Shown here in pieces: positions 4,405-25,094 of a stretch of DNA of 25,094 nt; position 1 is the stretch's first letter; every line of letters starts with the position of its first letter. The stretch is from positions 1 through 25,094 of IMG/VR virus record IMGVR_UViG_3300042453_002988; one strand, written 5' to 3'. The position numbers were made by a program, and so were the translations under genes. Under the pieces are notes generated by a model. It ran no database searches and had not been told where the DNA came from. It saw nothing but the letters and a program-made list of their open reading frames with translations. Source of the stretch: a virus.

Positions 4405-5054
4405 CGCTGCTCCCGCAAGCCGTCGAGGACGCCAGGCTGCCGGGAGGCACCAACGCCAATCGCCGCAGGAACAGCCATGATCCGCACGGCTTTCCGCAAG
4501 TGCTGGTCAGGAAGCACGAACTCCCTGTCGTGGTTTCTGGAACTCCCGGCGAACGGCGTGTTGCGGACGTTGTATTGCGGCAACTCAGCCGCCGGAACGT
4601 CGAACCGGTAGACAGGGGCGCTCAAATCGTTGTCGCCAACGTAGAAATCCAGTTCTCCTGGAGCGTCAGTCGCCCAGCGGCCAGCGGCACCTGCCGGATT
4701 GGTGTCGAACGCCCCTTTCATGGCTTCGTCGCGGGACAGCCGCCATTCGGCGTAAGGAATCTCCCTGCCCCACATGCGCACCGTGTCCGGCGGCTTGTAG
4801 TTGGTTGCGATCTCACCGACCCGATAGAGCCGCACGTGACCATCCGGAGCGGGCTCAGAAGCCTCGATGCGCTGAGTCAGTTCGGCAAATCGTTGCTGAT
4901 GCGGGTCGCTGTCGGCGTGGTATCCGCGAACAGGGCGCGCCGGAGGAGCCGGCTTCGGCGGCGGGGGCGGGGGCAGTTTTGCCTCCTTCGCCAACTCCGC
5001 AACTTTGTTCGCTCGACCGAGCCGGGCAGCAGCAAGTGCAGCAGGTGTTGCCAT
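4401..5054 (-). CDS. Probable ADP-ribosyltransferase-like virion-module protein
   Basis: A 217-residue protein with three parts. Residues 1-25 are an alanine-rich head whose first 22 residues are identical to those of the HExxH protein at 9870-10898. A proline-rich linker (28-40) follows. Residues 74-185 resemble a compact ART fold: LYRVG (Arg76), GRWATD (Thr129), a beta segment VYRFDVPAAEL and REFVLP (Glu178), in the order of an R-S/T-E triad. The tail ends QPGVLDGLREQR, again like the other protein. It lies inside the head module and overlaps the next gene by ATGA, so it may be carried in the virion. The ART call rests on motif order only. Confidence 0.5.
   Translation of the reverse strand: MATPAALAAARLGRANKVAELAKEAKLPPPPPPKPAPPARPVRGYHADSDPHQQRFAELTQRIEASEPAPDGHVRLYRVGEIATNYKPPDTVRMWGREIPYAEWRLSRDEAMKGAFDTNPAGAAGRWATDAPGELDFYVGDNDLSAPVYRFDVPAAELPQYNVRNTPFAGSSRNHDREFVLPDQHLRKAVRIMAVPAAIGVGASRQPGVLDGLREQR
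4982..5054 (-). repeat. Direct repeat encoding shared N-terminal head, copy 1
   Basis: A 73-bp stretch ending exactly at the start codon of the ART-like gene. It matches 10826-10898 at 70 of 73 positions, with differences at three sites only. The match stops abruptly upstream of the ATG, so this is a duplicated coding module and not a duplicated gene start region. Confidence 0.9.
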
Positions 5055-9869: not shown

Positions 9870-10898
9870 TCAGCGGGTCTCCGTCAGGCCAGAAAGGACG
9901 CCGGGCTGCTGCTGCTGGGCACCTGCGCCGATGGCGAGCGGGGCGAGGACGGCCGGAATCTGCGTCATCCGCTTGAACATGATTTGCTTGGAAGAAGCGG
10001 GCAGCGCGTCGTAGGTGTCAAAATGACTTCGCATCATTGACGGCAAGTCGGTCGGCGTCGAAAGGTCTTCAAGCCACTCTCGGTTGGCCCGCCACCACTC
10101 CCACGCGCCGGCGGCATCTTCTGGCGTCAGAACGTCCTTTCCGGTGTAGAAGGCATAGCGACGGCGCACCTCCGCAATGCGCGGATCCAGTTCTGCGCGT
10201 TGCATGAGGTAGTTTTCGTTTTCGACAAGCGGACGCAGCCTTTTCTCTGCAAGAAAGGCGTCCGGCCCTCCGGCGCTGTACTGGGCCGCCAACTGTGGGT
10301 TCTGCGCCAGCGTGGCACTGCCGTATGCCGTGTCATCGAATCGCTGAGAGGCGTTACGCCATTCCTCCGACCCAAGCAGGCCGGGCGACCGGCCTTTGTC
10401 CAAAAGGGCGTGCGTCAACTCATGCTCGACCACCGGGTTGATGCCCTTTGGCGCGGCATCCAAAAACGCGGGATTGAGTTGCACCTCACGGCTGGCGCCT
10501 CCGTATGTTCCGCGAGCATCAAACGGGCCCAGTTTCCAGTTGACGCGCACGGGAGTTGGCTTGTCCACGTCCTCCGGCGACCAGTTCCCGTATGCCGGCG
10601 AGTTAGAGTGCGGATAGACGGCGCCATGCTCCCGGAGCGCGCGCTGCGAGTTCTCCACCGCCGCATCAAAGCCGCCGGGCACGGCCTCGTACCAGCGAGA
10701 CACGGCCTGCCGAAACGTCACCGGAACTGGCTCTGGATTGGAGGCGGCGACACCTCCCGGCTCGGCACTCTCCGCAATCCGGCCACGCGCGTCGGCTAAG
10801 GTGTCGGGAGGATTGAGCCGACGAGCCTCCTCCGCCAACTCCGCGACTTTGTTCGCGCGACCGAGCCGGGCAGCAGCAAGTGCAGCAGGTGTTGCCAT
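9870..10898 (-). CDS. Putative zinc metallopeptidase-like virion-module protein
   Basis: A 342-residue protein starting at ATG 10898 behind GAGGGA. Residues 1-22 are identical to the start of the ART-like protein at 4401-5054, and the DNA matches at 70 of 73 positions. The centre has the HExxH zinc motif HELTH at 159-163 in the context NPVVEHELTHALLD, typical of small zincin domains. A third metal ligand is not obvious. The C-terminus (IPAVLAPLAIGAGA then QPGVLSGLTETR) resembles the tail of the ART-like protein. A virion-carried peptidase, perhaps for maturation or entry, is the leading idea; a catalytically dead homologue cannot be excluded. Confidence 0.6.
   Translation of the reverse strand: MATPAALAAARLGRANKVAELAEEARRLNPPDTLADARGRIAESAEPGGVAASNPEPVPVTFRQAVSRWYEAVPGGFDAAVENSQRALREHGAVYPHSNSPAYGNWSPEDVDKPTPVRVNWKLGPFDARGTYGGASREVQLNPAFLDAAPKGINPVVEHELTHALLDKGRSPGLLGSEEWRNASQRFDDTAYGSATLAQNPQLAAQYSAGGPDAFLAEKRLRPLVENENYLMQRAELDPRIAEVRRRYAFYTGKDVLTPEDAAGAWEWWRANREWLEDLSTPTDLPSMMRSHFDTYDALPASSKQIMFKRMTQIPAVLAPLAIGAGAQQQQPGVLSGLTETR
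10826..10898 (-). repeat. Direct repeat encoding shared N-terminal head, copy 2
   Basis: The second copy of the 73-bp coding repeat, at the start of the HExxH protein gene. Same orientation and same reading frame as copy 1 at 4982-5054. The high DNA identity indicates recent duplication or ongoing homogenisation. Confidence 0.9.
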
Positions 10899-13272: not shown

Positions 13273-13622
13273 GCGAAGGGAATCTCGTCGTCCGCCCCCA
13301 CGCCAGCCTGCTCCCGCTTGGGCCACCGCAGGCTGACGCCCACCTCGTTCGCCATCAGACGCAATGAGAAGCCCTGTGAGCCGTCCTTCTTCTCGTACGT
13401 CTCCAAGCCCGCCCGACCGGAGACAACGACTCTCTGGCCCTTCTGGAGCGTCTGGGAGCATGTCTCCGCCTGCTCGTCAAAGCAGACCACCTCCACCCAC
13501 GTCGTCGGCCCGTCCTTCTTCTCCGTCGAGGCCACCGAGAAGGTCAGCATCGCCTTCCCGCTCTTGGTGATCCGGAGTTCGTTCACCTTGCCCACATTGC
13601 CAGTCACGGTCGCTTCGATCAT
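13269..13622 (-). CDS. ssb: Single-stranded DNA-binding protein
   Basis: A 117-residue OB-fold protein that coats single-stranded DNA during replication and recombination. The N-terminus (MIEATVTGNVGKVNELRITK) and the strand-rich core (AMLTFSVAST, TTWVEVVCF, GQRVVVSGRAGLETYEKKDG) follow the bacterial SSB pattern. The protein ends DDEIPFA, close to the canonical acidic tip DDDIPF that recruits partner proteins, with one added alanine. The linker is very short, so it is a compact phage version. The start at 13622 has GAGAGAGGA upstream. It is the first gene of the leftward unit, with a plausible promoter 40-65 nt upstream. Confidence 0.93.
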   Translation of the reverse strand: MIEATVTGNVGKVNELRITKSGKAMLTFSVASTEKKDGPTTWVEVVCFDEQAETCSQTLQKGQRVVVSGRAGLETYEKKDGSQGFSLRLMANEVGVSLRWPKREQAGVGADDEIPFA

Positions 13623-13660
13623 CGGTTCCTCTCTCTCATTGGGACGCTGGACAGGTGGAC

Positions 13661-13688
13661 AGCATACGCCTGGACGGGCGTTTAGCAA
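13661..13688 (-). promoter_or_regulatory. Candidate leftward promoter for ssb operon
   Basis: On the minus strand, TTGCTA (13683-13688) and TATGCT (13661-13666) are separated by 16 nt, an acceptable sigma70-like spacing. The spacer contains an inverted repeat (ACGCC and GGCGT) that could be an operator. The -10 lies about 39 nt before the ssb start. It is a sequence match only. Confidence 0.4.
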
Positions 13689-13765
13689 CCCCCTCACAGG
13701 CTGGGGTCGATCTGTTTTGGGAAAAAATCCAGGAGGGGAACGTGACTGATACGTGATGCGGCTGG

Positions 13766-13807
13766 GGGGGCTCGGGGGCGTTCCATCTATACGCCCCCCT
13801 CAGCCCC
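13766..13807. other. GC-rich hairpin in divergent region
   Basis: The left arm GGGGGCTCGGGGGCG (13766-13780) pairs with 13792-13807 with one small bulge, around an 11-nt AT-richer loop (TTCCATCTATA). No T tract follows on either strand, so it is not a standard intrinsic terminator. A cruciform, transcript leader or replication-related structure are alternatives. Confidence 0.55.
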
Positions 13808-13889
13808 AGTCCTTTCAAGGACTTCCGCTTCACGCTGTCGAGGGCTGGCGTGAAGCCGGCCGCCGAAACGCTCAATCATCGCGGTCCAT

Positions 13890-13904
13890 CCGCTGCGGAG
13901 TCTG
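13890..13904 (+). repeat. CCGCTGCGGAGTCTG motif, copy 1
   Basis: An exact copy, 58 nt before the first rightward gene. It is the only copy not placed just after a stop codon. The downstream hairpin is weak (ACGG...CCGT around 13923-13937). Confidence 0.85.
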
Positions 13905-13962
13905 CCTTTTGTCGGAACGACGACGGCGTTCGACCGTCCCGTTACCGAATGGAGACTCTGCC

Positions 13963-14091
13963 ATGCACCGACTCGTTCGCCATTGCATCCGCCACTTCGA
14001 TGCCCGCTACGCCGCGTTCCTCGCCATCCACAAGGGCGATGCCTGGCGTGCGCTCGAGTCGGCTTTGATTGCCAGTGTGCCGATCCGCTGA
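13963..14091 (+). CDS. Tiny unknown protein
   Basis: A 42-residue, histidine/arginine-rich protein (MHRLVRHCIRHFDARYAAFL start). The ATG at 13963 follows ATGGAGACTCTGCC, a weak ribosome site. It opens the rightward gene series and is followed 5 nt after its stop by motif copy 2, like other genes in the series, which supports it being real. The composition suggests one amphipathic helix. No function can be proposed. Confidence 0.5.
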   Translation: MHRLVRHCIRHFDARYAAFLAIHKGDAWRALESALIASVPIR

Positions 14092-14096
14092 TTCCG

Positions 14097-14111
14097 CCGC
14101 TGCGGAGTCTG
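14097..14111 (+). repeat. CCGCTGCGGAGTCTG motif, copy 2
   Basis: An exact copy 5 nt after the stop of the 42-aa gene. It is followed by a hairpin at 14117-14141 (GGCCGA and TCGGCC around CGT, extended by four outer pairs after a mismatch), then the next ribosome site. Confidence 0.9.
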
Positions 14112-14168
14112 TCTTTCGGCTGGCCGACGTTCGGCCTGCCGTCCCGTCCCTCTCACCCGGAGCCTCCC

Positions 14169-14348
14169 ATGTTCTGCGTCGTGTCCATCGCCGTCACTGG
14201 CGAGCGTCGTTCCTACGTCTTTGCCAGTGAGCGGAAGGCTCGCTGGTACGTCAACGATCACGCCGATGGTGTGACGTTGTTCGTGCTCTACGACCCTGCC
14301 GGAGAGGTCGTGGTCGAGTCTCGGTTCCCGGTGCTGCTCTGCGGCTGA
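14169..14348 (+). CDS. Small unknown protein
   Basis: A 59-residue protein from ATG 14169, with GGAG upstream. It reads as a small beta-alpha-beta unit: a strand (FCVVSIAV), a helix with SERKARWYVNDH, and strands (VTLFVLYD and GEVVVESRF). Proteins of this kind occur in phage early regions without known function. It is bounded on both sides by motif copies (14097 and 14354), so it sits in one repeat-delimited unit. Confidence 0.65.
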   Translation: MFCVVSIAVTGERRSYVFASERKARWYVNDHADGVTLFVLYDPAGEVVVESRFPVLLCG

Positions 14349-14353
14349 TTCGG

Positions 14354-14368
14354 CCGCTGCGGAGTCTG
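14354..14368 (+). repeat. CCGCTGCGGAGTCTG motif, copy 3
   Basis: An exact copy 5 nt after the preceding stop. It is followed by two hairpins: 14376-14401 (GCGGCATCG with CGGTGCCGC) and 14407-14421 (CCCGC with GCGGG). Confidence 0.9.
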
Positions 14369-14456
14369 GATGGTAGCGGCATCGGCTTGTGTCGGTGCCG
14401 CCTCCACCCGCACTTCGCGGGATTGCTCGGTTGTTCCTTTCCACGAGGAGATTGCC

Positions 14457-14873
14457 ATGACGATTGCCCAAATCCAGAAGATCGCTGCCGAAGCCGTTGC
14501 CAACGCCCTGCGGCTCACGCAGACCCAAGATGCCCCCGCACCCGCGAAGAAAGCGGGCGGCGACCTCCAGGCCAAGCGGCTGGCCGCGTTGGAGAAGGCT
14601 CGTGCCGCGAAGAAGGCAAAGGCACAGGCCAAGCCCGCCGCCGTTGTCGCGGAGCCCGTGCAGAAGCCCGCGAAGGCCAAGAAGTCTCGCCCCGCCTGGA
14701 GCGTGAAGGATCATGTCACGAAGAAGGGCGTGAAGGGCCAGATCGTGCAGATCGGACCGCTCACCGCCTGGCTCCCGGAAGGCAACAAGGCCCGCAAGGC
14801 GGAGTTGTTCGCGGCGATCAACAACGTGATCCGGAGCGACGAGATCCGCAAGGTTGCCGCCCAGATTCGCTGA
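14457..14873 (+). CDS. Lys/Ala-rich, possibly nucleic-acid-binding protein
   Basis: A 138-residue protein from ATG 14457 with GAGGAG upstream. Residues 1-20 form a helix (IAQIQKIAAEAVANALRL). Residues 28-82 are a highly basic Lys/Ala/Pro tract (RAAKKAKAQAKPAAV and similar), like histone H1-type tails in bacteria. Residues 83-138 are a small folded domain (WSVKDHVTKKGVKGQIVQIG then ending with ELFAAINNVIRSDEIRKVAA). Binding to DNA or RNA is likely from charge; a more precise role is not visible. Confidence 0.7.
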   Translation: MTIAQIQKIAAEAVANALRLTQTQDAPAPAKKAGGDLQAKRLAALEKARAAKKAKAQAKPAAVVAEPVQKPAKAKKSRPAWSVKDHVTKKGVKGQIVQIGPLTAWLPEGNKARKAELFAAINNVIRSDEIRKVAAQIR

Positions 14874-14879
14874 TTCCAC

Positions 14880-14894
14880 CCGCTGTGGAGTCTG
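14880..14894 (+). repeat. CCGCTGCGGAGTCTG motif, copy 4 (one mismatch)
   Basis: Reads CCGCTGTGGAGTCTG, 6 nt after the stop. Two hairpins follow: 14901-14924 (GGGGCTG with CAGCCCC) and 14946-14969 (GCCCATCGC with GCGGTGGGC). Confidence 0.85.
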
Positions 14895-15007
14895 GGATGC
14901 GGGGCTGTGCTGCCAGCCAGCCCCAAATCCTGCACTCGCAGGCTCGCCCATCGCAACTTCGCGGTGGGCGTTTGTGTTTCTAGTCCCTGTTTCACAAGGA
15001 GTTTCCC

Positions 15008-15226
15008 ATGCGTTCACCCATCCGCCAGTTCACCGGCAAGGACGGCTGCTTCTACCTCGTCAACCTCAAGAGCGACAGCCGCGTGTACGGCCCATACCTG
15101 GACACGAAGCAGGTCCGCATGGCACGCGCCACGATTCCCGGTCACGAGCGGAGCAACGACGTTGTGCGTGCGTTCCGCGACGGCCTGCCAGCGGAGGAGG
15201 CCGACGTCAACCCGCTGACCCGGTAA
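15008..15226 (+). CDS. Small unknown protein
   Basis: A 72-residue protein starting MRSPIRQFTGKDG, with AAGGAG upstream. It has a strand-rich first half (CFYLVNLKSDSRVYGPYLDT) and a polar helical second half (RSNDVVRAFRDGLPAEEAD). It is flanked by motif copies at 14880 and 15231. No family is recognised and no catalytic residues stand out. Confidence 0.65.
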   Translation: MRSPIRQFTGKDGCFYLVNLKSDSRVYGPYLDTKQVRMARATIPGHERSNDVVRAFRDGLPAEEADVNPLTR

Positions 15227-15230
15227 ATCA

Positions 15231-15245
15231 CCGCTGCGGAGTCTG
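15231..15245 (+). repeat. CCGCTGCGGAGTCTG motif, copy 5
   Basis: An exact copy 4 nt after the TAA stop. It is followed by a perfect 10-bp hairpin, ACGGGGCCAG (15261-15270) with 15286-15295. Confidence 0.9.
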
Positions 15246-15317
15246 ATTTTCACACTGCGAACGGGGCCAGTCGTCACGGTGGCGGCTGGCCCCGTCGCAT
15301 TTCACAGGAGAGTTCCC

Positions 15318-15488
15318 ATGCGCACGCATGTCACCACCACCAACCCCCGACTCATGCACTTCGTCTCGCTCGCCCGTGTGGCGCGCGAGGTGGGGGCGAA
15401 GTCGCAACGACACCTTCTGGCCGACCTCCGCACGCTCACCCATCGTGAGCGTCGTGACGTGGCCGACCTCGTGAAGCAGGAGGACTGA
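15318..15488 (+). CDS. Tiny unknown protein
   Basis: A 56-residue basic protein from ATG 15318 with CAGGAG upstream. It is mostly helical (MHFVSLARVAREVGAKSQRH then LLADLRTLTHRERRDVADLV). Its stop overlaps the next start as TGATG, so both are probably translated together. The helix-turn-helix-like spacing in the middle is suggestive but not sufficient for a DNA-binding call. Confidence 0.6.
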   Translation: MRTHVTTTNPRLMHFVSLARVAREVGAKSQRHLLADLRTLTHRERRDVADLVKQED

Positions 15489-15616
15489 TGGGCAACAAGT
15501 GGAACGATCAGTGGTGGTCACTGGTCAAGGCTGAACGAGTCAAGGAGGAGGAGCGACTGCGAGTGGCACGCAAGCACGCCAAGCGTGCCACTCGCCGCAG
15601 GAAAAAGCAGCGGTAA
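15488..15616 (+). CDS. Tiny basic protein coupled to the upstream gene
   Basis: A 42-residue protein starting MGNKWNDQWWSLVKAE, with no ribosome site of its own; it depends on TGATG coupling with the gene before. The C-terminal half is an arginine/lysine run (KHAKRATRRRKKQR), which would bind nucleic acid non-specifically. It is followed 4 nt later by motif copy 6. Confidence 0.55.
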   Translation: MGNKWNDQWWSLVKAERVKEEERLRVARKHAKRATRRRKKQR

Positions 15617-15620
15617 TTCG

Positions 15621-15635
15621 CCGCTGCGGAGTCTG
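15621..15635 (+). repeat. CCGCTGCGGAGTCTG motif, copy 6
   Basis: An exact copy 4 nt after the TAA stop. The hairpin that follows (15648-15670) is the one copy with a real T tract behind it. Confidence 0.9.
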
Positions 15636-15647
15636 GTTTTCGGCATG

Positions 15648-15681
15648 GGCCGTCCCGTCGTGGGGCGGCCTTTTCTTTTTC
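15648..15681 (+). terminator. Intrinsic-terminator-like hairpin before the amidoligase
   Basis: GGCCGTCCC (15648-15656) pairs with GGGGCGGCC (15662-15670) with one G-T pair around a 5-nt loop, followed at once by TTTTCTTTTTC. This is a fair intrinsic terminator and would separate the small-gene series from the amidoligase unit, which then needs its own promoter or read-through. Confidence 0.6.
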
Positions 15682-15702
15682 ACCTTCGCTGAGGAGCGAG
15701 AC

Positions 15703-16935
15703 ATGAGCGACGAGAACGAAGTTCTGTACGACAACTACGGGTTCAACGATGCCACCGGCCTGCACCGCGATACAGGAACGGCGGTCGATCCCAACGGGTT
15801 CTACCGGGATGGGATTCACCGGACCACCGAGACGGAGTTCAGCCCACTCACCCGACTCACACGCGACGGCTATGCCTACGACTCGAGGGGGTACAACTAC
15901 GCGGGATACAACGATGAGGGGTACGACCGAGAGGGCTACGACTCGGACGGGTACGACCGCGACGGCCTGGACAGCGCCACCAATTCGCGGTGCGACAACG
16001 GCGAGTGCGACAACGGCAATTGCTCGTGCCGCGACTCCTTCGATGACCAACTGGACGGGTACGGCACGCGAGCCCCGCGTGTGCTGGGCTGGGCACCACA
16101 CCCAGACTTGGAGCCGACGTACCTGTACGCCGGCCACGAGATCGAGATGTACTCGGACGACGAGGACTTCTCTGACGTGGAGCACACGCTCCACCAGGTA
16201 AACACCCTGTACGCGGGCCTCAATCCACTGACTCGCAACCGCCGGTGTGCCATCGCCAAGCACGACGGCTCACTGGAGGACGGCGGTTTTGAGTTGGTGA
16301 CTGTGCCGCTCACGACCGAGCAGGTCTACGGCATCTTCGGCAAGATCAAGACGCTGGGGGACGGCCGCTGCTCTGCGTGGGACAGGGGCGACGACGTTGG
16401 GCACCACATCCACCTGTCCAAGCGGGCCATCGGGCCGCTCACGCTGGGCAAGTTGCTGGTGTTCATGAACGCGGAGAGAAACCGTTCGTTCCTTGAAGCC
16501 ATCGCCTGCCGCCCGGCCGGGTTCAATCACTTCTGCACCAAGAAAGTGACTGACCAGGGCAACTCCGACAGGTACGAGGTTCTCAACGTGACCGACAGCA
16601 CGGTCGAGTTCCGCCTGTTCAAGAGCAACCTGTACGGGCGGGCGATCCTCAAGAACCACGAGTTCGCCGTCGCTGCCGTGCGGTTCTGCGAGCAGGTGTC
16701 GCACGGGTTCGGGGAGGTGGACAGCCACATTGACCCGCTGCACTTCGTCAACTTCCGCACGTTCGTAGCGGCCAACCGCCACACCTACCGCTACCTGCAC
16801 GAGTTCTTGCTGTCTCACACCTCGCTTCGCGTCGGCTACCGCAACAACGCGGGCCTGCCCGACAGCGTGGCTAACCCGAAGGAGAAGTCGCCCGTGTTCC
16901 GGATGATTCGCCGCACCGACATCGAAGGTGCTTGA
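15703..16935 (+). CDS. GS-like amidoligase (Amidoligase_2 type)
   Basis: A 410-residue protein from ATG 15703 with GAGGAG upstream. The catalytic part has the family's marks: GHEIE at 144-148, HDGSLEDGGFELVT at 187-200, HHIHLS at 234-239 and TVEFRLF at 300-306, in the right order for the glutamine-synthetase-like amidoligase fold, which joins a carboxylate to an amine using ATP. Residues 56-90 are tandem GY(D/N)xxGYD units, and residues 97-109 are a cysteine cluster (CDNGECDNGNCSC). The next gene is a class II amidotransferase, the partner described for this family. The substrate is unknown; a peptide or cell-wall target are both possible. Confidence 0.82.
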   Translation: MSDENEVLYDNYGFNDATGLHRDTGTAVDPNGFYRDGIHRTTETEFSPLTRLTRDGYAYDSRGYNYAGYNDEGYDREGYDSDGYDRDGLDSATNSRCDNGECDNGNCSCRDSFDDQLDGYGTRAPRVLGWAPHPDLEPTYLYAGHEIEMYSDDEDFSDVEHTLHQVNTLYAGLNPLTRNRRCAIAKHDGSLEDGGFELVTVPLTTEQVYGIFGKIKTLGDGRCSAWDRGDDVGHHIHLSKRAIGPLTLGKLLVFMNAERNRSFLEAIACRPAGFNHFCTKKVTDQGNSDRYEVLNVTDSTVEFRLFKSNLYGRAILKNHEFAVAAVRFCEQVSHGFGEVDSHIDPLHFVNFRTFVAANRHTYRYLHEFLLSHTSLRVGYRNNAGLPDSVANPKEKSPVFRMIRRTDIEGA

Positions 16936-16987
16936 TCGGTTCCGTTTCTTGACCCCCTCACTTTCACACTCACAAGGAGATTCCTGC

Positions 16988-17839
16988 ATGTGCCTCGCCA
17001 TCTACAAGCCCGCCACCACCCAGCCCGACTGGTCCGCCTACCGCAACGGCTTCGCCGTGAACGACGATTCGTGGGGATTCGCCGCAGTCGTGGACGGCAC
17101 GCTCGTCACCCGCTGCGGTGTCGGCACCTTTGAGGAGTTCCGCGAAGCCCTTGAACCGTACGCCGACAAGCAGGCCATCATCCACTTCCGATGGGCCACG
17201 CACGGCAAGAAGGACACGGGCAACTGCCACCCCTTCATGGTCAGCGACTCGCTGGCCGTGATCCACAACGGAATTATCTCGATCAAGTGCGATCTGGATA
17301 AAGACCGCAGTGACACCTGGCACTTCAACGAGTTGGTCCTCAAGCCCATGCACGCCAGGGACGAGGGCTTCTACCAGCGCAGCGAGGTGGTGTACACGCA
17401 GCAACTCGCCCACTCCGGCAGCAAGTTCGTGTTCCTGCGGGCGGACGGCGACTACTGCATCTGGAACGAGGACGCTGGCGACTGGGCCCGTGACGGGCAC
17501 TGGTACAGCAACGACTCGCACGAGGGATCGTACTACCGCAGCGTCGGCTTCGGCTTGACGGCCCGCACCAAGACGACCACCACCACCACAGAGCGGTCGT
17601 GGATCGAGGAGTCGGACGGCAAGTGGAAGTACGTGGAGGACGACAACTCCGTGTCCACGCTCCGCGATGCGTACTCCCGCATGGCAGACGAGCAGGAGGA
17701 GGAGGACCGGGAGGATTCGTTCTACACCAGCATGCGTGTGGATGACTTGATCGCCTACGGTTTCAGCCGCAAGTGCTTGGCTGAAGTGCAAGACATGCTC
17801 GGCCACGACGGCATCGAGTTGCTGCACGACGCCATCTGA
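16988..17839 (+). CDS. Class II glutamine amidotransferase
   Basis: A 283-residue protein beginning MCLAIYKP, so Cys2 becomes the N-terminal nucleophile after Met removal. The Ntn-hydrolase core is visible: DSWGFAAV at 28-35, HFRWATHGKKDTGNCHPF at 66-83 and VIHNGII at 91-97 with the oxyanion Asn-Gly pair. It releases ammonia from glutamine or, in related enzymes, hydrolyses or forms amide bonds. It has no fused synthase, so it must act with a partner, most likely the amidoligase 52 nt upstream. Residues 190-240 are a Thr/Ser- and acid-rich linker. Start confirmed by AAGGAG. Confidence 0.85.
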   Translation: MCLAIYKPATTQPDWSAYRNGFAVNDDSWGFAAVVDGTLVTRCGVGTFEEFREALEPYADKQAIIHFRWATHGKKDTGNCHPFMVSDSLAVIHNGIISIKCDLDKDRSDTWHFNELVLKPMHARDEGFYQRSEVVYTQQLAHSGSKFVFLRADGDYCIWNEDAGDWARDGHWYSNDSHEGSYYRSVGFGLTARTKTTTTTTERSWIEESDGKWKYVEDDNSVSTLRDAYSRMADEQEEEDREDSFYTSMRVDDLIAYGFSRKCLAEVQDMLGHDGIELLHDAI

Positions 17840-17844
17840 TTTCC

Positions 17845-17859
17845 CCGCTGCGGAGTCTG
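17845..17859 (+). repeat. CCGCTGCGGAGTCTG motif, copy 7
   Basis: An exact copy 5 nt after the stop of the amidotransferase. A hairpin follows at 17866-17898 (GCGGGGCC with GGCCCCGC). Confidence 0.9.
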
Positions 17860-17921
17860 GTTTCTGCGGGGCCAGTGGCACTGGGTCACCGGCCCCGCTT
17901 CCCTTTCTTCACGAGGTTCCC

Positions 17922-18644
17922 ATGAAAATCCCTGCGTTCATCAAGCAACTCGCCAAGTTCTGCGACCCAGAGCAAGCACGCTACGCACTCGGCTGCATCA
18001 AGTGCGTGAGCGATGGCACGACGGCCAGCATGACGGCAACCGACGGGCACATCCTCGCCAGCGTTCATTGGAAGGACGAGGACGGCATCGAACTGAACGC
18101 CCTCGCGGACGCGAAGGAGTTGTCCTCGCCGCCAGTCAAGGCGTTCTCGCATCCGCTGGGGGTGCGATTCGACGGCGAGGAGTTTCGCGGCGGCGTCAGC
18201 GGTCCCGTCACGACCATCGAGACTGGCCGGTTCCCTGACTGCGAGAGGGTGATGGCGATTCACGACAGCCCGAAGGGGTACGTGTCCGTCAAACTGGACG
18301 CCGCCCTGCTCGGCAAGTTGTGTGCCTTGTCGCACGCCATGAACGACCACAAGCACAAGGGAATCACGCTGTTCGTCAAGGACTCGCAGTCCTGCGTGTT
18401 CGCCACCACGCTGGGTCAGGACGGGCACGTTGCCCGCTTCGCCATCATGCCACTGGCTGCGGATGACGGGACTGTGCCTGCGTACCCGCCGCGACCGGGT
18501 GCGGCAGCGACGGCCAAGCCTGCCGCTCGCTCACGTAGGGCGGCGTCACCGCCCGCCCCCGTCCCGGAACTGATGGACGACGAGCAGGTGGCAGTGGCAG
18601 TGGCGGCCGACGACTGGTCGGTCTGCCTGCCCCCCATCGGCTGA
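17922..18644 (+). CDS. Sliding-clamp-like (DnaN-type) protein
   Basis: A 240-residue protein from ATG 17922 with GAGG upstream. Its start (EQARYALGCIKCVSDGTTA then MTATDGHILASVHW) has the clamp pattern of an opening helix and an ATDGxxLA strand. The middle (TTIETGRFPDCERVM) matches the clamp GxFPDYxRV signature, and VSVKLDAALLGKLCALSHAM matches the second-domain helix. Full bacterial clamps have about 370 residues in three domains, so this looks reduced to about one and a half domains plus a Pro/Ala-rich disordered tail (190-225). It could serve phage replication or compete with the host clamp. Moderate confidence. Confidence 0.55.
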   Translation: MKIPAFIKQLAKFCDPEQARYALGCIKCVSDGTTASMTATDGHILASVHWKDEDGIELNALADAKELSSPPVKAFSHPLGVRFDGEEFRGGVSGPVTTIETGRFPDCERVMAIHDSPKGYVSVKLDAALLGKLCALSHAMNDHKHKGITLFVKDSQSCVFATTLGQDGHVARFAIMPLAADDGTVPAYPPRPGAAATAKPAARSRRAASPPAPVPELMDDEQVAVAVAADDWSVCLPPIG

Positions 18645-18663
18645 CATTTTCCCCGCAATTTCC

Positions 18664-18678
18664 CCGCTGCGGAGTCTG
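18664..18678 (+). repeat. CCGCTGCGGAGTCTG motif, copy 8
   Basis: An exact copy 19 nt after the stop. The extra upstream part (TTTTCCCCGCAATTTCC) is shared, with small changes, by copy 9. No downstream hairpin is evident; the next ribosome site is only 15 nt away. Confidence 0.9.
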
Positions 18679-18705
18679 TTTCTACGGCAAGCAAGGAGGC
18701 AAGCC

Positions 18706-18798
18706 ATGCACCACTGGACCCATGCAGAGATCGAACTCTTTCTCGCCATGTGCTACGTCGCCATGAAGGCACTGGCACGGTGGGCGGAACTCGACTGA
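18706..18798 (+). CDS. Tiny unknown protein
   Basis: A 30-residue frame, MHHWTHAEIELFLAMCYVAM then KALARWAELD, with an AAGGAGG site at ideal spacing. It looks like one amphipathic to hydrophobic helix. The strong ribosome site and tight packing before the LexA-like gene (15 nt) support translation. Function unknown. Confidence 0.5.
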   Translation: MHHWTHAEIELFLAMCYVAMKALARWAELD

Positions 18799-18813
18799 AA
18801 GGAGAGATGCCTA

Positions 18814-19155
18814 ATGACTGACATGACAGAACGCGAGCGAGAGATTCTCACGCTCATCGCACGTTCGATTGACACCTATGGATACCAGCCGTCGTACCGG
18901 GAGATCGCCGCCCACTTCGGGTGGTCTGGGCTGAGTTATGTGCAGTACCTCGCACGCCGCCTCGCACACAAGGGCCATGCCCAAGTGGTCGGGGCTCGTG
19001 CGTGGTCGTTCGATTGGAAGTCTTACCTCAAGGAGCAGAAGCATGACGCTGCAAGAACTGATGAATCGACTGATCGCCCTGTGCCCCGACGCCATGTTCG
19101 ACGAAAGCGGAGAGGGGGAAGTCGTCGTCTACACCGGGCTGCGCAAGCACGATGA
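18814..19155 (+). CDS. LexA-type winged-helix DNA-binding protein
   Basis: A 113-residue protein from ATG 18814 with AAAGGAG upstream. Residues 5-70 match the LexA N-terminal domain: EREREILTLIARSIDTYGYQ, then PSYREIAAHFGWSGLSYVQY, then LARRLAHKGHAQVVGARAW. There is no Ser/Lys protease domain, so it cannot self-cleave like LexA. It is probably a small phage repressor or operator-binding factor. The last 38 residues are basic and are read over the start of the next gene (113 nt overlap), so the functional unit is likely the first 75 residues. Confidence 0.75.
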   Translation: MTDMTEREREILTLIARSIDTYGYQPSYREIAAHFGWSGLSYVQYLARRLAHKGHAQVVGARAWSFDWKSYLKEQKHDAARTDESTDRPVPRRHVRRKRRGGSRRLHRAAQAR

Positions 19156-19207
19156 TGACGACTGGAACGTAGGCTCCCTCCGCGTCGAACCGTTGACGGA
19201 GAACTGA
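19043..19207 (+). CDS. Small acidic unknown protein overlapping the LexA-like gene
   Basis: A 54-residue protein, MTLQELMNRLIALCPDAMFD onward, with AAGGAG at good spacing before ATG 19043. It has a first helix, then strands (GEVVVYTGL) and an acidic loop (KHDDDDWNVGSL). This pattern is common in short phage proteins. It overlaps the end of the LexA-like frame by 113 nt in another frame; both have convincing starts, so both are kept. The overlap could couple their translation. Confidence 0.6.
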   Translation: MTLQELMNRLIALCPDAMFDESGEGEVVVYTGLRKHDDDDWNVGSLRVEPLTEN

Positions 19208-19220
19208 AGATATGTACACT

Positions 19221-19232
19221 CACACAGGAGGC
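19221..19232 (+). promoter_or_regulatory. Shared leader 12-mer CACACAGGAGGC, copy 1
   Basis: Contains a full AGGAGG ribosome site 5 nt before ATG 19238. The same 12 bases occur at 21879-21890 and 23588-23599. Confidence 0.7.
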
Positions 19233-19237
19233 GGGCT

Positions 19238-19414
19238 ATGCCATACCCGACTACTACCGTGACACTCACGCCACGCGAGATCGACCTCATCATCACGGCC
19301 TTGCACGAGAGTGCGGAGGATCGTGAGCAGTTCGATGAACCCGAGCAGGCAGCGGCGTTCGCTGTCCTGCAACGACGGTTCGTCAAAGCACAGACCCAAG
19401 TCATCACCCACTGA
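19238..19414 (+). CDS. Small helical unknown protein
   Basis: A 58-residue protein from ATG 19238, preceded by CACACAGGAGGC, a 12-mer used before two other genes here. It reads TVTLTPREIDLIITALHESA with a second helix (EPEQAAAFAVLQRRFVKAQT). The opening strand followed by two helices resembles small phage proteins of the form LTxxExxxLxxAL. No function is known to me. Its stop lies 11 nt before the next start. Confidence 0.65.
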   Translation: MPYPTTTVTLTPREIDLIITALHESAEDREQFDEPEQAAAFAVLQRRFVKAQTQVITH

Positions 19415-19425
19415 AAGGATCACCC

Positions 19426-20304
19426 ATGACACCGACAACTCTCACCATCGGTTCGGGGCTGGGCGGCATCGCCATCCTCAACACCAAGACGGTGAACCGA
19501 GACCGCCTCTATTACGCGGCAGATGCGGTGGGCTGCGGGAAGTTCGTCCCTGCCCAGCCCGCTCGCACGACCGTGCTGCGGGACTGCATGAAGGACGTGG
19601 CCACCAGCCTGTACGGCCGCATCCGCAGGCAACCCAACGTGGTGCGGCAACTGGATGACCCCGCCTCGTTTGAGGTGGTGCGTGTGGTGCCGGGCCAGTC
19701 GCAGAACGAGTACCGCTTCCTGTTCTCTGCCCTCATCGGCACGAACTGGGACGTTGGCATCCTGGAGTACGACTCCGCAGGGCCACGCGGCTCACAGGTT
19801 CTCGCCGCGCTCGACCCGGCGGTCGTGCAGCAGCGGGACTACCTGCCGGCCAGCGTGGTCGGGCAGGTCGTGGTCAAGATGCTCCGCCACTGGAAGGCCA
19901 CGCCCCTCAAGGACGACGGCGGCGTGTGGTTCATGCTGGGCCAGACGCTTGAGGACTTCCGCACGTTCGCTGGCCTGCTGCTTGGACCGCACGCAGACGG
20001 CCCGCGATTCACCGTTCACCAAGTCGAGATCGCTTCCGATCCCGACACGGTGATGCACGTCCTCGACCGGCTCGGCACGGAAGTGCAGGCCGGGCTGGCG
20101 GAGATCATGACCGACGTGATGGAAGCGACCGGCGGCATGGCCGACCGCTCCATCAGCGTGCGGATCAACCGGGCCGACAGGTTTCTGGAGAAGGTGCGGC
20201 TGTACGAACAGGTTCTCGGGCGCCCCATGCCCGACCTGACTGCGGCCATCGAGCAAGTCAAGCAGGCAGTCGCCGTCAATCGGCTACTGGCTGCGGCTGT
20301 CTGA
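19426..20304 (+). CDS. Unknown 292-aa protein
   Basis: A 292-residue protein from ATG 19426 with AAAGGA upstream. The first part is strand-rich (TTLTIGSGLGGIAILNTKTV), the middle has EYRFLFSALIGTNWDVGILE and GVWFMLGQTLEDFRTFAGLL, and the last 60 residues are helical (DRFLEKVRLYEQVLGRPMPD onward). No active-site motif is visible. A similar layout occurs in large phage proteins of unknown function that sit beside AAA ATPase/VWA genes, so a role with the following MoxR/VWA pair is conceivable, but that is inference from the neighbourhood only. Confidence 0.65.
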   Translation: MTPTTLTIGSGLGGIAILNTKTVNRDRLYYAADAVGCGKFVPAQPARTTVLRDCMKDVATSLYGRIRRQPNVVRQLDDPASFEVVRVVPGQSQNEYRFLFSALIGTNWDVGILEYDSAGPRGSQVLAALDPAVVQQRDYLPASVVGQVVVKMLRHWKATPLKDDGGVWFMLGQTLEDFRTFAGLLLGPHADGPRFTVHQVEIASDPDTVMHVLDRLGTEVQAGLAEIMTDVMEATGGMADRSISVRINRADRFLEKVRLYEQVLGRPMPDLTAAIEQVKQAVAVNRLLAAAV

Positions 20305-20331
20305 CCAATCCCACCCACTAAGGAGAGTGTT

Positions 20332-20661
20332 ATGCGTACGCTTCGCCTCGACTACAGCAAGTTCATCAGCGAGTACAAGGAAGCCCTGTCGTGTGACCTG
20401 CACTTCAAGGAGTTCTTGCAACTCGCCGGCATCAGTCCGTTCATGCTCAACGACCGGCTCAAGACGCTGGCCCAGAGGGGACTCGTCCTGCCCAAGTTGA
20501 GGGGCATGCGGAACAGGTCGAGCGGGATCGTGGCCGCCAAGCGGAAGGCCAAGCGGAGGGCCAAGATCACCCGCCAGCCCAGCCGCCCGCAGGCCCGGCC
20601 CAGCGAACCCGCCGCCGTGCTAGAGGCCACGCCGACGTTCGTGATCTGCGTCGGAGGCTGA
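20332..20661 (+). CDS. Small probable helix-turn-helix protein
   Basis: A 109-residue protein from ATG 20332 with AAGGAGAG upstream. Residues 19-57 (SCDLHFKEFLQLAGISPFML then NDRLKTLAQRGLVLPKLRG) resemble the short HTH seen in many phage proteins: a helix, an AGIS-type turn, a recognition helix, then GLxLPKLR. Residues 60-85 are very basic (AAKRKAKRRAKITRQPSRPQ). Together these suggest DNA or RNA binding. Its target is unknown. It is followed by motif copy 9 and precedes the ATPase gene. Confidence 0.65.
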   Translation: MRTLRLDYSKFISEYKEALSCDLHFKEFLQLAGISPFMLNDRLKTLAQRGLVLPKLRGMRNRSSGIVAAKRKAKRRAKITRQPSRPQARPSEPAAVLEATPTFVICVGG

Positions 20662-20680
20662 CGTTTTCCCCGCAGTTTTC

Positions 20681-20695
20681 CCGCTGCGGAGTCTG
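20681..20695 (+). repeat. CCGCTGCGGAGTCTG motif, copy 9
   Basis: An exact copy 19 nt after the stop, with the extended upstream part seen at copy 8. It is followed by a hairpin at 20702-20734 (GGGGGCGAGG with CCTCGCCCCC). Confidence 0.9.
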
Positions 20696-20770
20696 GTTTG
20701 TGGGGGCGAGGTGGCATCGTGCTGCCTCGCCCCCGTCCCATTTGTCCACCCCTTGAGGAGTTCCCCTGTC

Positions 20771-21874
20771 ATGTCTCGCACCACACTCGGCAACACCCCC
20801 GCGTTCCTCGCCTGCCAGGTCGCCCCCGTGCTGGTCACGGGCGGCACTGGCGTCGGCAAGTCCTCGACGTGGGAGGCACTGGCTGCTGCACTGGAGCGGA
20901 CGTTCGTCCCGCTGCTCGGTGCCACCCACCTGCCCGAAGATTTCTCTGGCTACCCCATCCCCGACCACAAGGCAGGCGTCGTCCGCATGATGCCGACCTC
21001 CCTGTGGGACAAGACCAAAGACGGCAAGGCTCTCGTCCTCGTGGACGAGGTGACCAACGTGCCATCCGCCACGCAGGGAGGCTTGCTCTCCGTCCTGTCC
21101 GAGCGACGGGTCGGTGAGTACGTGATGCCGGCATCGACCATCATCGTCGGTGCCTGCAACCCACCGGAACTGTGCCCCAATGCGGTGCCCCTCGCACCTG
21201 CCATGCGTGCCCGGTTCGTCCACTTCCCTTGGGAGGTGGACTACGAACACTGGTTCACCGGCCTGCGTGCCGGGTGCCAGTGGACGGCACCGCAGTTCCC
21301 CATCGTGCCGGAACACTGGACAGACTTCCTTCCGCAGTTCGGCTCGCTGGTCGAGGCGTTCCTCCGCTCGGCACCCGACGCTCGGGAGAAGTTGCCGCAG
21401 GACGACGAGACGATGGCGTTCCCGAACCTGCGGACCTGGACGTTCCTTGCCCGGTGCTTCGCGGCAGCGGGTGCCTGCGGGTACGAGCAGAAAGACCCCA
21501 TCTACCGGCCGCTCGCCGTTGGCTGCGTCGGTGCGGAGGTGGGCGGCGAGTTCCTCCGGTACTGGCACCGGCTCGACCTGCTCAACCCGGAGGCGTACCT
21601 GTCCGGTGCGGAGGACTACAAGTACGAGCGTCGGCCCGACGCCAACATCTGCTTCCTCACTGGTCTGGTGAAGTCCCTGCGTGACAACACCAGCAAGGAG
21701 CGGTGGACTCGTGCGGCGGAGGCGTTCATCACCATCGGGGAACAGGAGATCGAGTCGTTCCTCATGCAGTTCCGTTCGTTCTGGAACCCCGTCAGCAAGG
21801 GTGGCGTGCGACCGGAGGGCTGGAACCCGCCGAAGGATGTGCTTGCGAAGTTGATGGCGTTGGTTCAGTCGTGA
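20771..21874 (+). CDS. MoxR-type AAA+ ATPase
   Basis: A 367-residue ATPase from ATG 20771 with GAGGAG upstream. Walker A is GGTGVGKSS at 24-32, Walker B is ALVLVDEV at 87-94, the sensor-1 asparagine is in GACNPPE (130), and MRARFVHF (145-152) supplies the arginine finger region. The Walker B-adjacent VTNVPSATQGGLLSVLSERR is typical of MoxR/RavA-like proteins, which remodel partner proteins and are paired with VWA proteins. The C-terminal 170 residues are helical and less conserved. Its partner is probably the VWA protein at 22146, in the same unit. Confidence 0.85.
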   Translation: MSRTTLGNTPAFLACQVAPVLVTGGTGVGKSSTWEALAAALERTFVPLLGATHLPEDFSGYPIPDHKAGVVRMMPTSLWDKTKDGKALVLVDEVTNVPSATQGGLLSVLSERRVGEYVMPASTIIVGACNPPELCPNAVPLAPAMRARFVHFPWEVDYEHWFTGLRAGCQWTAPQFPIVPEHWTDFLPQFGSLVEAFLRSAPDAREKLPQDDETMAFPNLRTWTFLARCFAAAGACGYEQKDPIYRPLAVGCVGAEVGGEFLRYWHRLDLLNPEAYLSGAEDYKYERRPDANICFLTGLVKSLRDNTSKERWTRAAEAFITIGEQEIESFLMQFRSFWNPVSKGGVRPEGWNPPKDVLAKLMALVQS

Positions 21875-24733: not shown

Positions 24734-25094
24734 ATGCCCATCGTCTATGCGTATGGCCGGGCATCCACCGGCCGACAGACCATCACGGAGGACGCCCAGC
24801 GCTCCGTGTGCGAGGAGTACATCAAGCGGGCACTCGTCCCGGAGGGATACACCTATGGCGGCTGGCTCTACGACTCCGCCACCAGCGGCACCAAGCCGAT
24901 GTTTGAGCGGGACGAGGGCCGCAAGGTGTGGGCTCTCGTCCAGCCGGGCGACAAGATCGTGTGGGCAAAACTCGACCGGGCCTTCCGCTCCGTCATCGAC
25001 GCCGCCCAGACCATGCAACTCCTCAACCGGAAGGAGGTGTCGTTCAACTCCCTCGATCTCGGGCTGGACACCGGCAGTCCCATCGGCCGCTGCG
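24734..25094 (+). CDS. Serine recombinase, N-terminal catalytic domain (3' end outside window)
   Basis: The first 120 residues of a resolvase/invertase-type recombinase. AYGRASTGRQT (6-16) is the YxRxSTxxQ catalytic signature with the nucleophile serine in RAS, and KIVWAKLDRAFRS is the conserved LDRxxR segment. The later VSFNSLDLGLDTGSPIGR also fits the family. It cuts and rejoins DNA through a covalent 5'-phosphoserine. The window ends before its DNA-binding region, so a small resolvase and a large phage integrase cannot be told apart. AGGAGG precedes the ATG. Confidence 0.88.
   Translation, partial: MPIVYAYGRASTGRQTITEDAQRSVCEEYIKRALVPEGYTYGGWLYDSATSGTKPMFERDEGRKVWALVQPGDKIVWAKLDRAFRSVIDAAQTMQLLNRKEVSFNSLDLGLDTGSPIGRC

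Follow-up and report, generated by a model that had tools for sequence, protein, structure and literature searches.

A repeated and oriented 15-bp element usually followed by gene-specific hairpins, a possible phage promoter, in a family of uncultured phages

In the accessible portions of the published accounts, promoters of the phiEco32 sigma factor are built on a single conserved element with transcription starting 6-8 bp downstream, and such a single element accompanies a sigma factor without region 4, whereas two elements accompany a sigma factor with region 4 (PMC8948821). Phage 7-11 has a different sigma factor and a two-part element at similar positions (PMC4281155), and related phages of this type keep the positions of their promoters while the sequences differ (PMC8948821, PMC4281155). 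In the halovirus HF2, oriented intergenic repeats have been shown to be promoters (PMC8707807, partial text). Here, we describe a 15-bp element, CCGCTGCGGAGTCTG, that is repeated nine times on one strand of a viral DNA of 25,094 nt (IMG/VR record IMGVR_UViG_3300042453_002988, positions 1 to 25,094), referred to below as the window. The phages carrying it resemble phiEco32 and 7-11, as far as the consulted text of those reports goes, in encoding their own phage sigma factor and in having short, highly conserved elements upstream of genes. In contrast to both, the element here is GC-rich and 15 bp long, is present in 4-13 copies before small units of one block, and is usually followed by a hairpin. 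The phiEco32 sigma promoters appear to be the closest precedent, although in the phages described here the sigma factor keeps region 4, the window-type element shows no conserved -35, and the start sites are predicted from sequence alone. The HF2 repeats are likewise conserved, oriented and intergenic, with positions kept among relatives, but they are archaeal elements of 29 or 56-58 bp, and the word hairpin does not occur in the available text of that report (PMC8707807).

The window contains eight exact copies and one single-mismatch copy of the motif, all on the plus strand and within 13890-20695, and our recount confirms the repeat as given in the preliminary description, in number, position and orientation. 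A conserved leader ends at copy 1 (13890..13904), which precedes the first gene of the rightward block; this copy has no same-strand gene upstream, so stop-codon distances are given for copies 2-9. Copies 2 (14097..14111) and 3 (14354..14368) lie 5 nt past a stop codon, copy 4 (14880..14894, with the mismatch C7 to T) 6 nt, copies 5 (15231..15245) and 6 (15621..15635, upstream of an amidoligase-like gene) 4 nt, and copy 7 (17845..17859, upstream of a 240-amino-acid (240-aa) clamp-like or RusA-like gene) 5 nt. Copies 8 (18664..18678) and 9 (20681..20695, upstream of a MoxR-type ATPase gene) both lie 19 nt past a stop codon, which agrees with the earlier count of six copies at 4-6 nt and two at 19 nt. 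The next start codon follows 27-113 nt from the motif. All nine copies are non-coding, as had been claimed, while only 13.7% of 13890-20695 is non-coding by our gene calls; the claim is limited by the relatives, some of whose copies lie inside coding sequence. Allowing up to 3 mismatches, the window contains 14 matches, whereas 100 dinucleotide shuffles yielded 2.41 on average and at most 6. A two-mismatch match at 17110, inside a gene, was treated as chance. In the six records tested, the motif is the source of the most repeated 13-mer, and no other 13-mer is as frequent. A further short sequence, TTTTCCCCGCA(A/G)TTT, precedes copies 8 and 9 (18647-18661 and 20664-20678) and is seen again in relatives. 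This sequence may be a pairing partner of the motif or a decayed partial copy.

An exact scan of IMG/VR returned 118 stretches with the motif. Copies with at most one mismatch were then counted in 18 and in 7 further viral records, mostly picked for several matches. In 22 of these 25 IMG/VR records, 4-13 copies each are confined to one gene block, 193 in the orientation of the array and two in the opposite one, the latter being outlying copies of ACGCTGCGGAGTCTG in G017 and G027. The remaining three records comprise two with one copy each (G016 and G018; single-copy viral matches of this kind were treated as chance) and a 9.8-kb fragment with two (G026). Several records look like near-duplicates (window/G002, G003/G006, G013/G015, G017/G027 and G011/G022), and the independent phages are therefore fewer than the records. 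Terminal direct repeats of 127 nt and 99 nt were found in G007 (60.4 kb) and G009 (62.6 kb), respectively. The motif marks a family of uncultured phages, and a tblastn search with four proteins against 50,697 phage records returned nothing above 37% identity. One record, G001, has motif copies at both contig ends, each together with a MoxR gene (L127 and L142; 91% and 81% identity to the window), and may be a chimeric assembly.

A profile of 94 non-redundant copies, which includes coding copies and two-mismatch copies, extends the conserved element beyond the 15-mer. T is found at position 18 in 72/94 and at position 19 in 54/94 copies, a pyrimidine occupies position 21 in 88/94 and a purine position 22 in 89/94, and G is favoured at positions 25 (64) and 26 (61). 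The pyrimidine-purine (YR) step was further counted in 73 non-coding copies with a hairpin, a set without copies of more than one mismatch, copies lacking a hairpin of -12 kcal/mol, nine coding-region positions and the match at 17110. As read from the bases, the step sits at positions 21/22, that is 6/7 nt past the motif, in 70 of the 73, compared to a background of 24%. It is kept whatever the start of the main stem (30/31 copies with a stem starting by position 22, 11/12 at 23 and 29/30 at 24 or later), and it is thus independent of the hairpin. Within the window, eight of nine copies carry the step at 21/22, as at 13910/13911 for copy 1, and copy 8 carries it one base earlier (18683/18684). 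A base class, rather than specific bases, kept at a near-fixed distance past a T-rich stretch looks like a transcription start. Together with the hairpin covariation at the MoxR site described below, the 94-copy profile bears out the earlier suggestion of a selected element.

Among the functions proposed in the preliminary description, a promoter is the best supported, by virtue of the YR step. We put forward tentatively, at somewhat less than even confidence, that every copy serves as a phage promoter, possibly recognized by the sigma factor that the phage encodes, with a message that would start with a 5' hairpin. Two further features are in line with promoters: the copies begin units, the first unit included, and in relatives there are copies within coding sequence that precede the following gene, among them the G009 copy described below. 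We postulate that the RNA polymerase holoenzyme would contact the invariant 15 bp over about -21 to -7, that the T-rich bases at positions 17-21 would melt, and that the first RNA base would be the purine at position 22, which follows a pyrimidine. Position 22 as the start site, the use of the host polymerase core and the recognition of the motif by the sigma factor are what we infer from this arrangement. A GC-rich hairpin specific to the gene would stand at the very start of the message or a few bases from it, where it could protect the 5' end, and the ribosome site would come next. The nine copies of the window would accordingly drive nine units of one or more genes in a single rightward block, with the phage ECF-like sigma factor as the candidate specificity factor.

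This sigma factor, of 174 amino acids, is encoded by the relatives in convergent orientation just past the block; the window ends before the gene. Sigma70_r2 was recognized in 13/16 records, the misses being G002, G011 and G015. Regions 2 and 4 are both detected by Pfam, the protein is similar to solved ECF sigma factors in the PDB, and the two regions are largely conserved among phages sharing the motif. The preliminary description had considered a promoter for a phage-specific polymerase. Its promoter part is favoured by the YR step and an ECF-like sigma factor is encoded, but no T7-type polymerase was found: PF00940 was absent from 16 records and then from 10 phage records, with no record rated complete (the T7 positive control scored E 9.9e-110 in the search of 10, and no control matched in the search of 16). 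Standard sigma70 promoters were also considered, and the block gave one weak match, as by chance (mean 0.7).

A different repeated element is seen in the distant phages L242-L247, whose sigma factors are 48-49% identical. No arrays of the 15-mer occur in these phages; L243 and L247 have one two-mismatch match each. On one strand of the same block, as read in G031, G032, G033 and part of G034, they carry a distant element composed of an inverted repeat (CCCYTG-TTTT-CARGGG), followed by CGGCGA(G/T)T and then by T-rich bases. Using a search pattern in which the loop and right arm are partly fixed, we gathered 22 copies. In these, the first six pairs of the inverted repeat are paired in 122/132 cells, compared to 43-66% when the arms are slid. 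A YR step is present in all 22 copies, 8 nt past GGCGA in 12 and 9 nt in 10, where 43% would be expected for either offset, and the offset is constant within each record.

The hairpins following the motif in the window, all on the plus strand, span 13906..13954 after copy 1 (-17.4 kcal/mol), 14117..14141 after copy 2 (-17.6), 14371..14406 after copy 3 (-25.5), 14895..14930 after copy 4 (-22.1) and 15256..15299 after copy 5 (-38.0). Copy 6 is followed by 15647..15671 (-20.4), with a T-rich tract next that makes it terminator-like, copy 7 by 17866..17898 (-25.9) and copy 9 by 20702..20734 (-30.7), the last two starting exactly at element position 22. The hairpins reported earlier are therefore present, with the count raised from seven to eight of nine at -15 kcal/mol or lower; copy 8, at 18664, is the one without a strong hairpin. 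Across 70 hairpins at this threshold, a set that includes some coding copies, stem starts range over positions 16-34 with a mode at 22 (12 copies). A second small hairpin (CCCGCACTTCGCGGG, CCTGCACTCGCAGG) is found past the main hairpin of units 3 and 4 (14407-14421 and 14929-14942) and occurs in relatives as well. Rfam gave no match at the gathering score over window positions 13600-21000, and its two matches (E 2.3 and 4.3) are far below that score.

Alignment of relatives, which the preliminary description had advised as a check for covariation, reveals compensatory changes in the hairpin at the MoxR site (copy 9). In 14 of 17 reference sequences (leaving out L252, the wrong site; L133, a near-duplicate; and L132, with a shorter hairpin), 93.7% of cells are paired over 14 pairs. 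Six of the 14 pairs are changed on both sides, compared to a shuffled mean of 3.4 (16/500 shuffles as high), and the covariation score is 0.321 compared to 0.169 in shuffles (0/500 as high). At the amidoligase site, 9 of 14 sequences were aligned (leaving out the near-duplicates L133, L130 and L136, and L135 and L140 as the wrong site); changes on both sides are limited to a single pair out of nine, in two of the nine sequences, so the covariation support there is thin.

Strong hairpins bring to mind transcriptional pausing, attenuation or antitermination, in which polymerase would pause past the motif and a factor would decide on readthrough of a terminator-like hairpin. At least five T within the next 8 nt follow 16/70 of the strong hairpins (23%, background 3.4%), which makes a minority of them terminator-like, as such a mechanism would predict. 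By eye, the hairpin sequence tracks the downstream and not the upstream gene, which also suits it, and the sigma factor is weakly similar to Q-like antiterminators (E 0.0041 in Pfam, below the cut-off; 5.4e-4 in PHROGs). The remaining 54/70, however, have fewer than five T in that interval, and by eye no terminator-like hairpin follows the copies inside genes. We consider this mechanism distinctly unlikely.

The sequence upstream of the motif may also be structured. In the window family it pairs with the motif better than do motif-free gene ends (57 versus 317 segments, p 1.6e-5; G006, a near-duplicate of G003, was dropped from the upstream-pairing tests). Pairing of upstream arms to the spacer and motif of the same copy is better than that of permuted arms, with z of -4.3 to -5.6, or of -1.6 to -2.9 under stricter de-duplication, compared to 0.9 to 2.3 for control gene ends. 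This pairing would be expected if the element acted in RNA processing and end protection within a polycistronic message. In that case, an upstream structure would cover the stop codon, and a nuclease would cut the U-rich stretch linking it to the downstream hairpin, giving each unit a protected 5' end. The compensatory changes at the MoxR site, the upstream inverted repeat of the distant element and the sense orientation of nearly all copies speak for the same idea. Copies inside genes, on the other hand, would cut a coding message, and a YR step conserved by class at a near-fixed distance, independent of the hairpin start, is more typical of initiation. The processing site suggested in the preliminary description thus ranks below its promoter option, which is better supported, and we hold it to be unlikely. 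A broader account, doubtful yet deserving mention, would be a transcribed and hitherto undescribed phage 'punctuation' made of a structure over the stop codon, a U-rich core ending in YR, a gene-specific hairpin and lineage versions matched to a trans factor, which would set the ends or readthrough of units within one block.

The copies inside genes merit closer description. In relatives, coding sequence harbours some five sets of homologous copies, each ahead of the following gene. Each of the 15 coding copies tested can be read as GCT GCG GAG TCT (Ala-Ala-Glu-Ser) in an open frame that has a preceding start codon; a second frame is also open in most of them. Three sets lie in genes recognized by homology, namely the 240-aa gene, a 58-aa gene and a 138-aa basic gene (the last with two-mismatch copies), a fourth lies at the end of a called gene, and the fifth (G004 1059 and the like) is the least certain. 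A 30-aa gene has a copy of its own at a distance of 25 nt in three relatives; in G009, the nearest copy to this gene is a coding one, 141 nt upstream. Since copies lie inside genes, the case of G009 included, a pure boundary or cut site is disfavoured.

This bears on the earlier proposal of a boundary at which gene cassettes are exchanged by recombination. Gene units have indeed been swapped between copies at the one place compared: the interval from the glutamine-amidotransferase-like (GATase-like) gene to the 30-aa gene is occupied by the 240-aa gene in the window, by a different gene in G003 and by no gene in G008, with the junctions at the motif. G003 also encodes an ERF-type recombinase. 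The same exchange would be seen with any module of promoter plus gene, however, and neither the copies inside genes nor the YR step would be explained. As the function of the element, cassette exchange seems highly improbable.

Several lineages carry their own version of the motif. G028 has CCGATCCGGAGTC in 7/7 copies, and its first 14 kb contain no copy of the usual motif; in G021, 8/9 copies with at most one mismatch end in GTCCG, and CGGCGTC is found in 5/11 copies of G003. Such concerted change within lineages suggests that a partner may be changing too. A co-evolving binder would also fit repressor operators or stoperators along one block, and the asymmetric, mostly intergenic repeats in one orientation recall the stoperators of mycobacteriophages, also asymmetric repeated sites (PMC9283540, partial text). 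In the same part of that report, stoperators are spread across the phage genome, in contrast to the confinement to one block seen here, and the YR step and T-rich stretch are not expected of operators. The obvious binder would be a LexA-like helix-turn-helix protein with a DNA-binding domain but no protease part, encoded at 18814-19155; phages with an identical motif differ strongly in its recognition helix, which makes this protein a poor candidate. We regard operators as very unlikely. Two further repeats invite comparison, in each case from the text at hand. The SPBRE of SPbeta likewise measures 15 bp and recurs within one phage, at several sites that are intergenic or in promoters, but it is a repressor binding site, bound by MrpR, a tyrosine-recombinase-like repressor (PMC10516654). 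The start-associated sequences (SAS) and extended SAS (ESAS) of cluster K mycobacteriophages are 13-bp asymmetric repeats in 11-19 copies, about half with inverted repeats upstream; unlike the motif described here, 27-113 nt away, they typically lie 3-7 bp before start codons (PMC3203893).

Outside phages, genomes of 84,980 species were scanned for exact CCGCTGCGGAGTCTGNNTNNYR, a slightly longer sequence, a search that would miss variant motifs. Twenty-nine stretches match, and none of the stretches fetched for them contains a phage-like array. Near-copies in L034, L106 and L110 are short-period tandem repeats unrelated to the arrays and were set aside by position. The fetched stretch of a Hyphomicrobiales metagenome-assembled genome (L173) contains three near-copies, and its 4.7-Mb genome (G035) contains 38 copies, 19 per strand, of which nine are exact and the rest have a single mismatch; the reversed pattern gave none. 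In the 20 of these 38 that were read (L269-L288), the 15-mer directly precedes a near-constant GC-rich palindrome, GGTCCCCGC-CTGC-GCGGGGACGAC; we take this repeat to be REP-like (repetitive extragenic palindromic). The shared layout raises the idea that the phage element is itself a REP-like repeat common to bacterial genomes. In G035, however, the hairpin hardly varies, both strands are used equally and the YR step at 21/22 occurs in 1/20, whereas the phage hairpins vary and 193/195 copies lie on one strand. That the phage element is such a repeat is extremely unlikely; we take the repeat of G035 to be probably a different one sharing the 15-mer, by chance or distant kinship. The preliminary description would have taken equal frequency in unrelated genomes as a refutation, and this one genome, with 38 near-copies in a different repeat, is a partial instance of it. 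The planctomycete link raised there is not established: 4/29 genome matches are planctomycete, with one exact copy each in the fetched stretch. Two of these records are so titled and two are Candidatus Kuenenia, presumably to be placed among planctomycetes. Near-copies compared to the reversed control number 3/0 in G019, 5/1 in G020, 11/0 in G036 and 3/2 in G037, and we draw no reading from them.

A number of observations weigh against the copies being promoters. The window-type element has no conserved -35 in the 94-copy profile, and the sigma factor keeps region 4 nonetheless; the DNA-binding regions of the G028 sigma factor display no obvious change to match its altered motif. In copies before the 30-aa gene, which lack a hairpin and hence fall outside the 73-copy count, the YR step often comes one or two bases earlier. 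Terminator-like T tracts after 16/70 strong hairpins would be odd directly past a start site. The upstream pairing in the window family is suggestive of an RNA role and, like the upstream inverted repeat of the distant element, hints that the region upstream is transcribed. Finally, the same 15-mer stands before a hairpin in G035 with the YR step in only 1/20, and this bacterial repeat led us to lower our estimate for promoters from even to slightly below even.

All nine copies lie in the rightward block of the window, which is encoded on the plus strand. Besides small genes, this block contains the amidoligase-like gene (a weak match, E 0.0026), the GATase-like gene (below cut-off), the 240-aa gene (best PHROG label RusA-like, second polymerase processivity factor), the LexA-like helix-turn-helix gene, a DUF6744 gene, the MoxR-type ATPase gene and a gene for a VWA-type protein. 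The block also includes the start of a serine recombinase gene (integrase/invertase-like; 24734-25094), which is cut by the window end. The amidoligase-like and GATase-like genes adjoin (15703-17839) upstream of the MoxR/VWA genes and may form a peptide-modifying module. Upstream of the block, a conserved non-coding leader (13640..13889, plus strand) extends between the SSB gene and copy 1. It contains a AAAAAATCCAGG block common to many of 20 aligned relatives and to the three distant phages read, and the neighbouring AGGAGGGGAACGTAACT is found a single time per record in the six tested; the leader is a possible main promoter or origin. Simple open reading frame calling places most genes of G003 in the leftward direction, among them the ERF gene and a portal-like gene whose E of 4.2e-7 falls narrowly short of the Pfam cut-off. 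In the window, a 74-nt direct repeat, 96% identical, lies over the 5' ends of two leftward genes (4981-5054 and 10825-10898).

In the open-access literature searched, we found no text with the 15-mer and, among the matches listed, no description of such an element. Within the class of repeated, oriented phage control elements, this one is in our view set apart by the long GC-rich core, the single copy per small unit, the variable hairpin and the lineage versions. If the copies are transcript starts, they would show how these phages switch on a gene block. If they are sigma-directed promoters, the two clades would represent matched pairs of diverged sigma factor and element, with natural single-base variants in addition, for the study of sigma-promoter co-evolution; if they are RNA elements instead, they would constitute a new kind of phage mRNA punctuation. 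As a whole, the element offers a sequence-based entry to gene regulation in this uncultured phage lineage.

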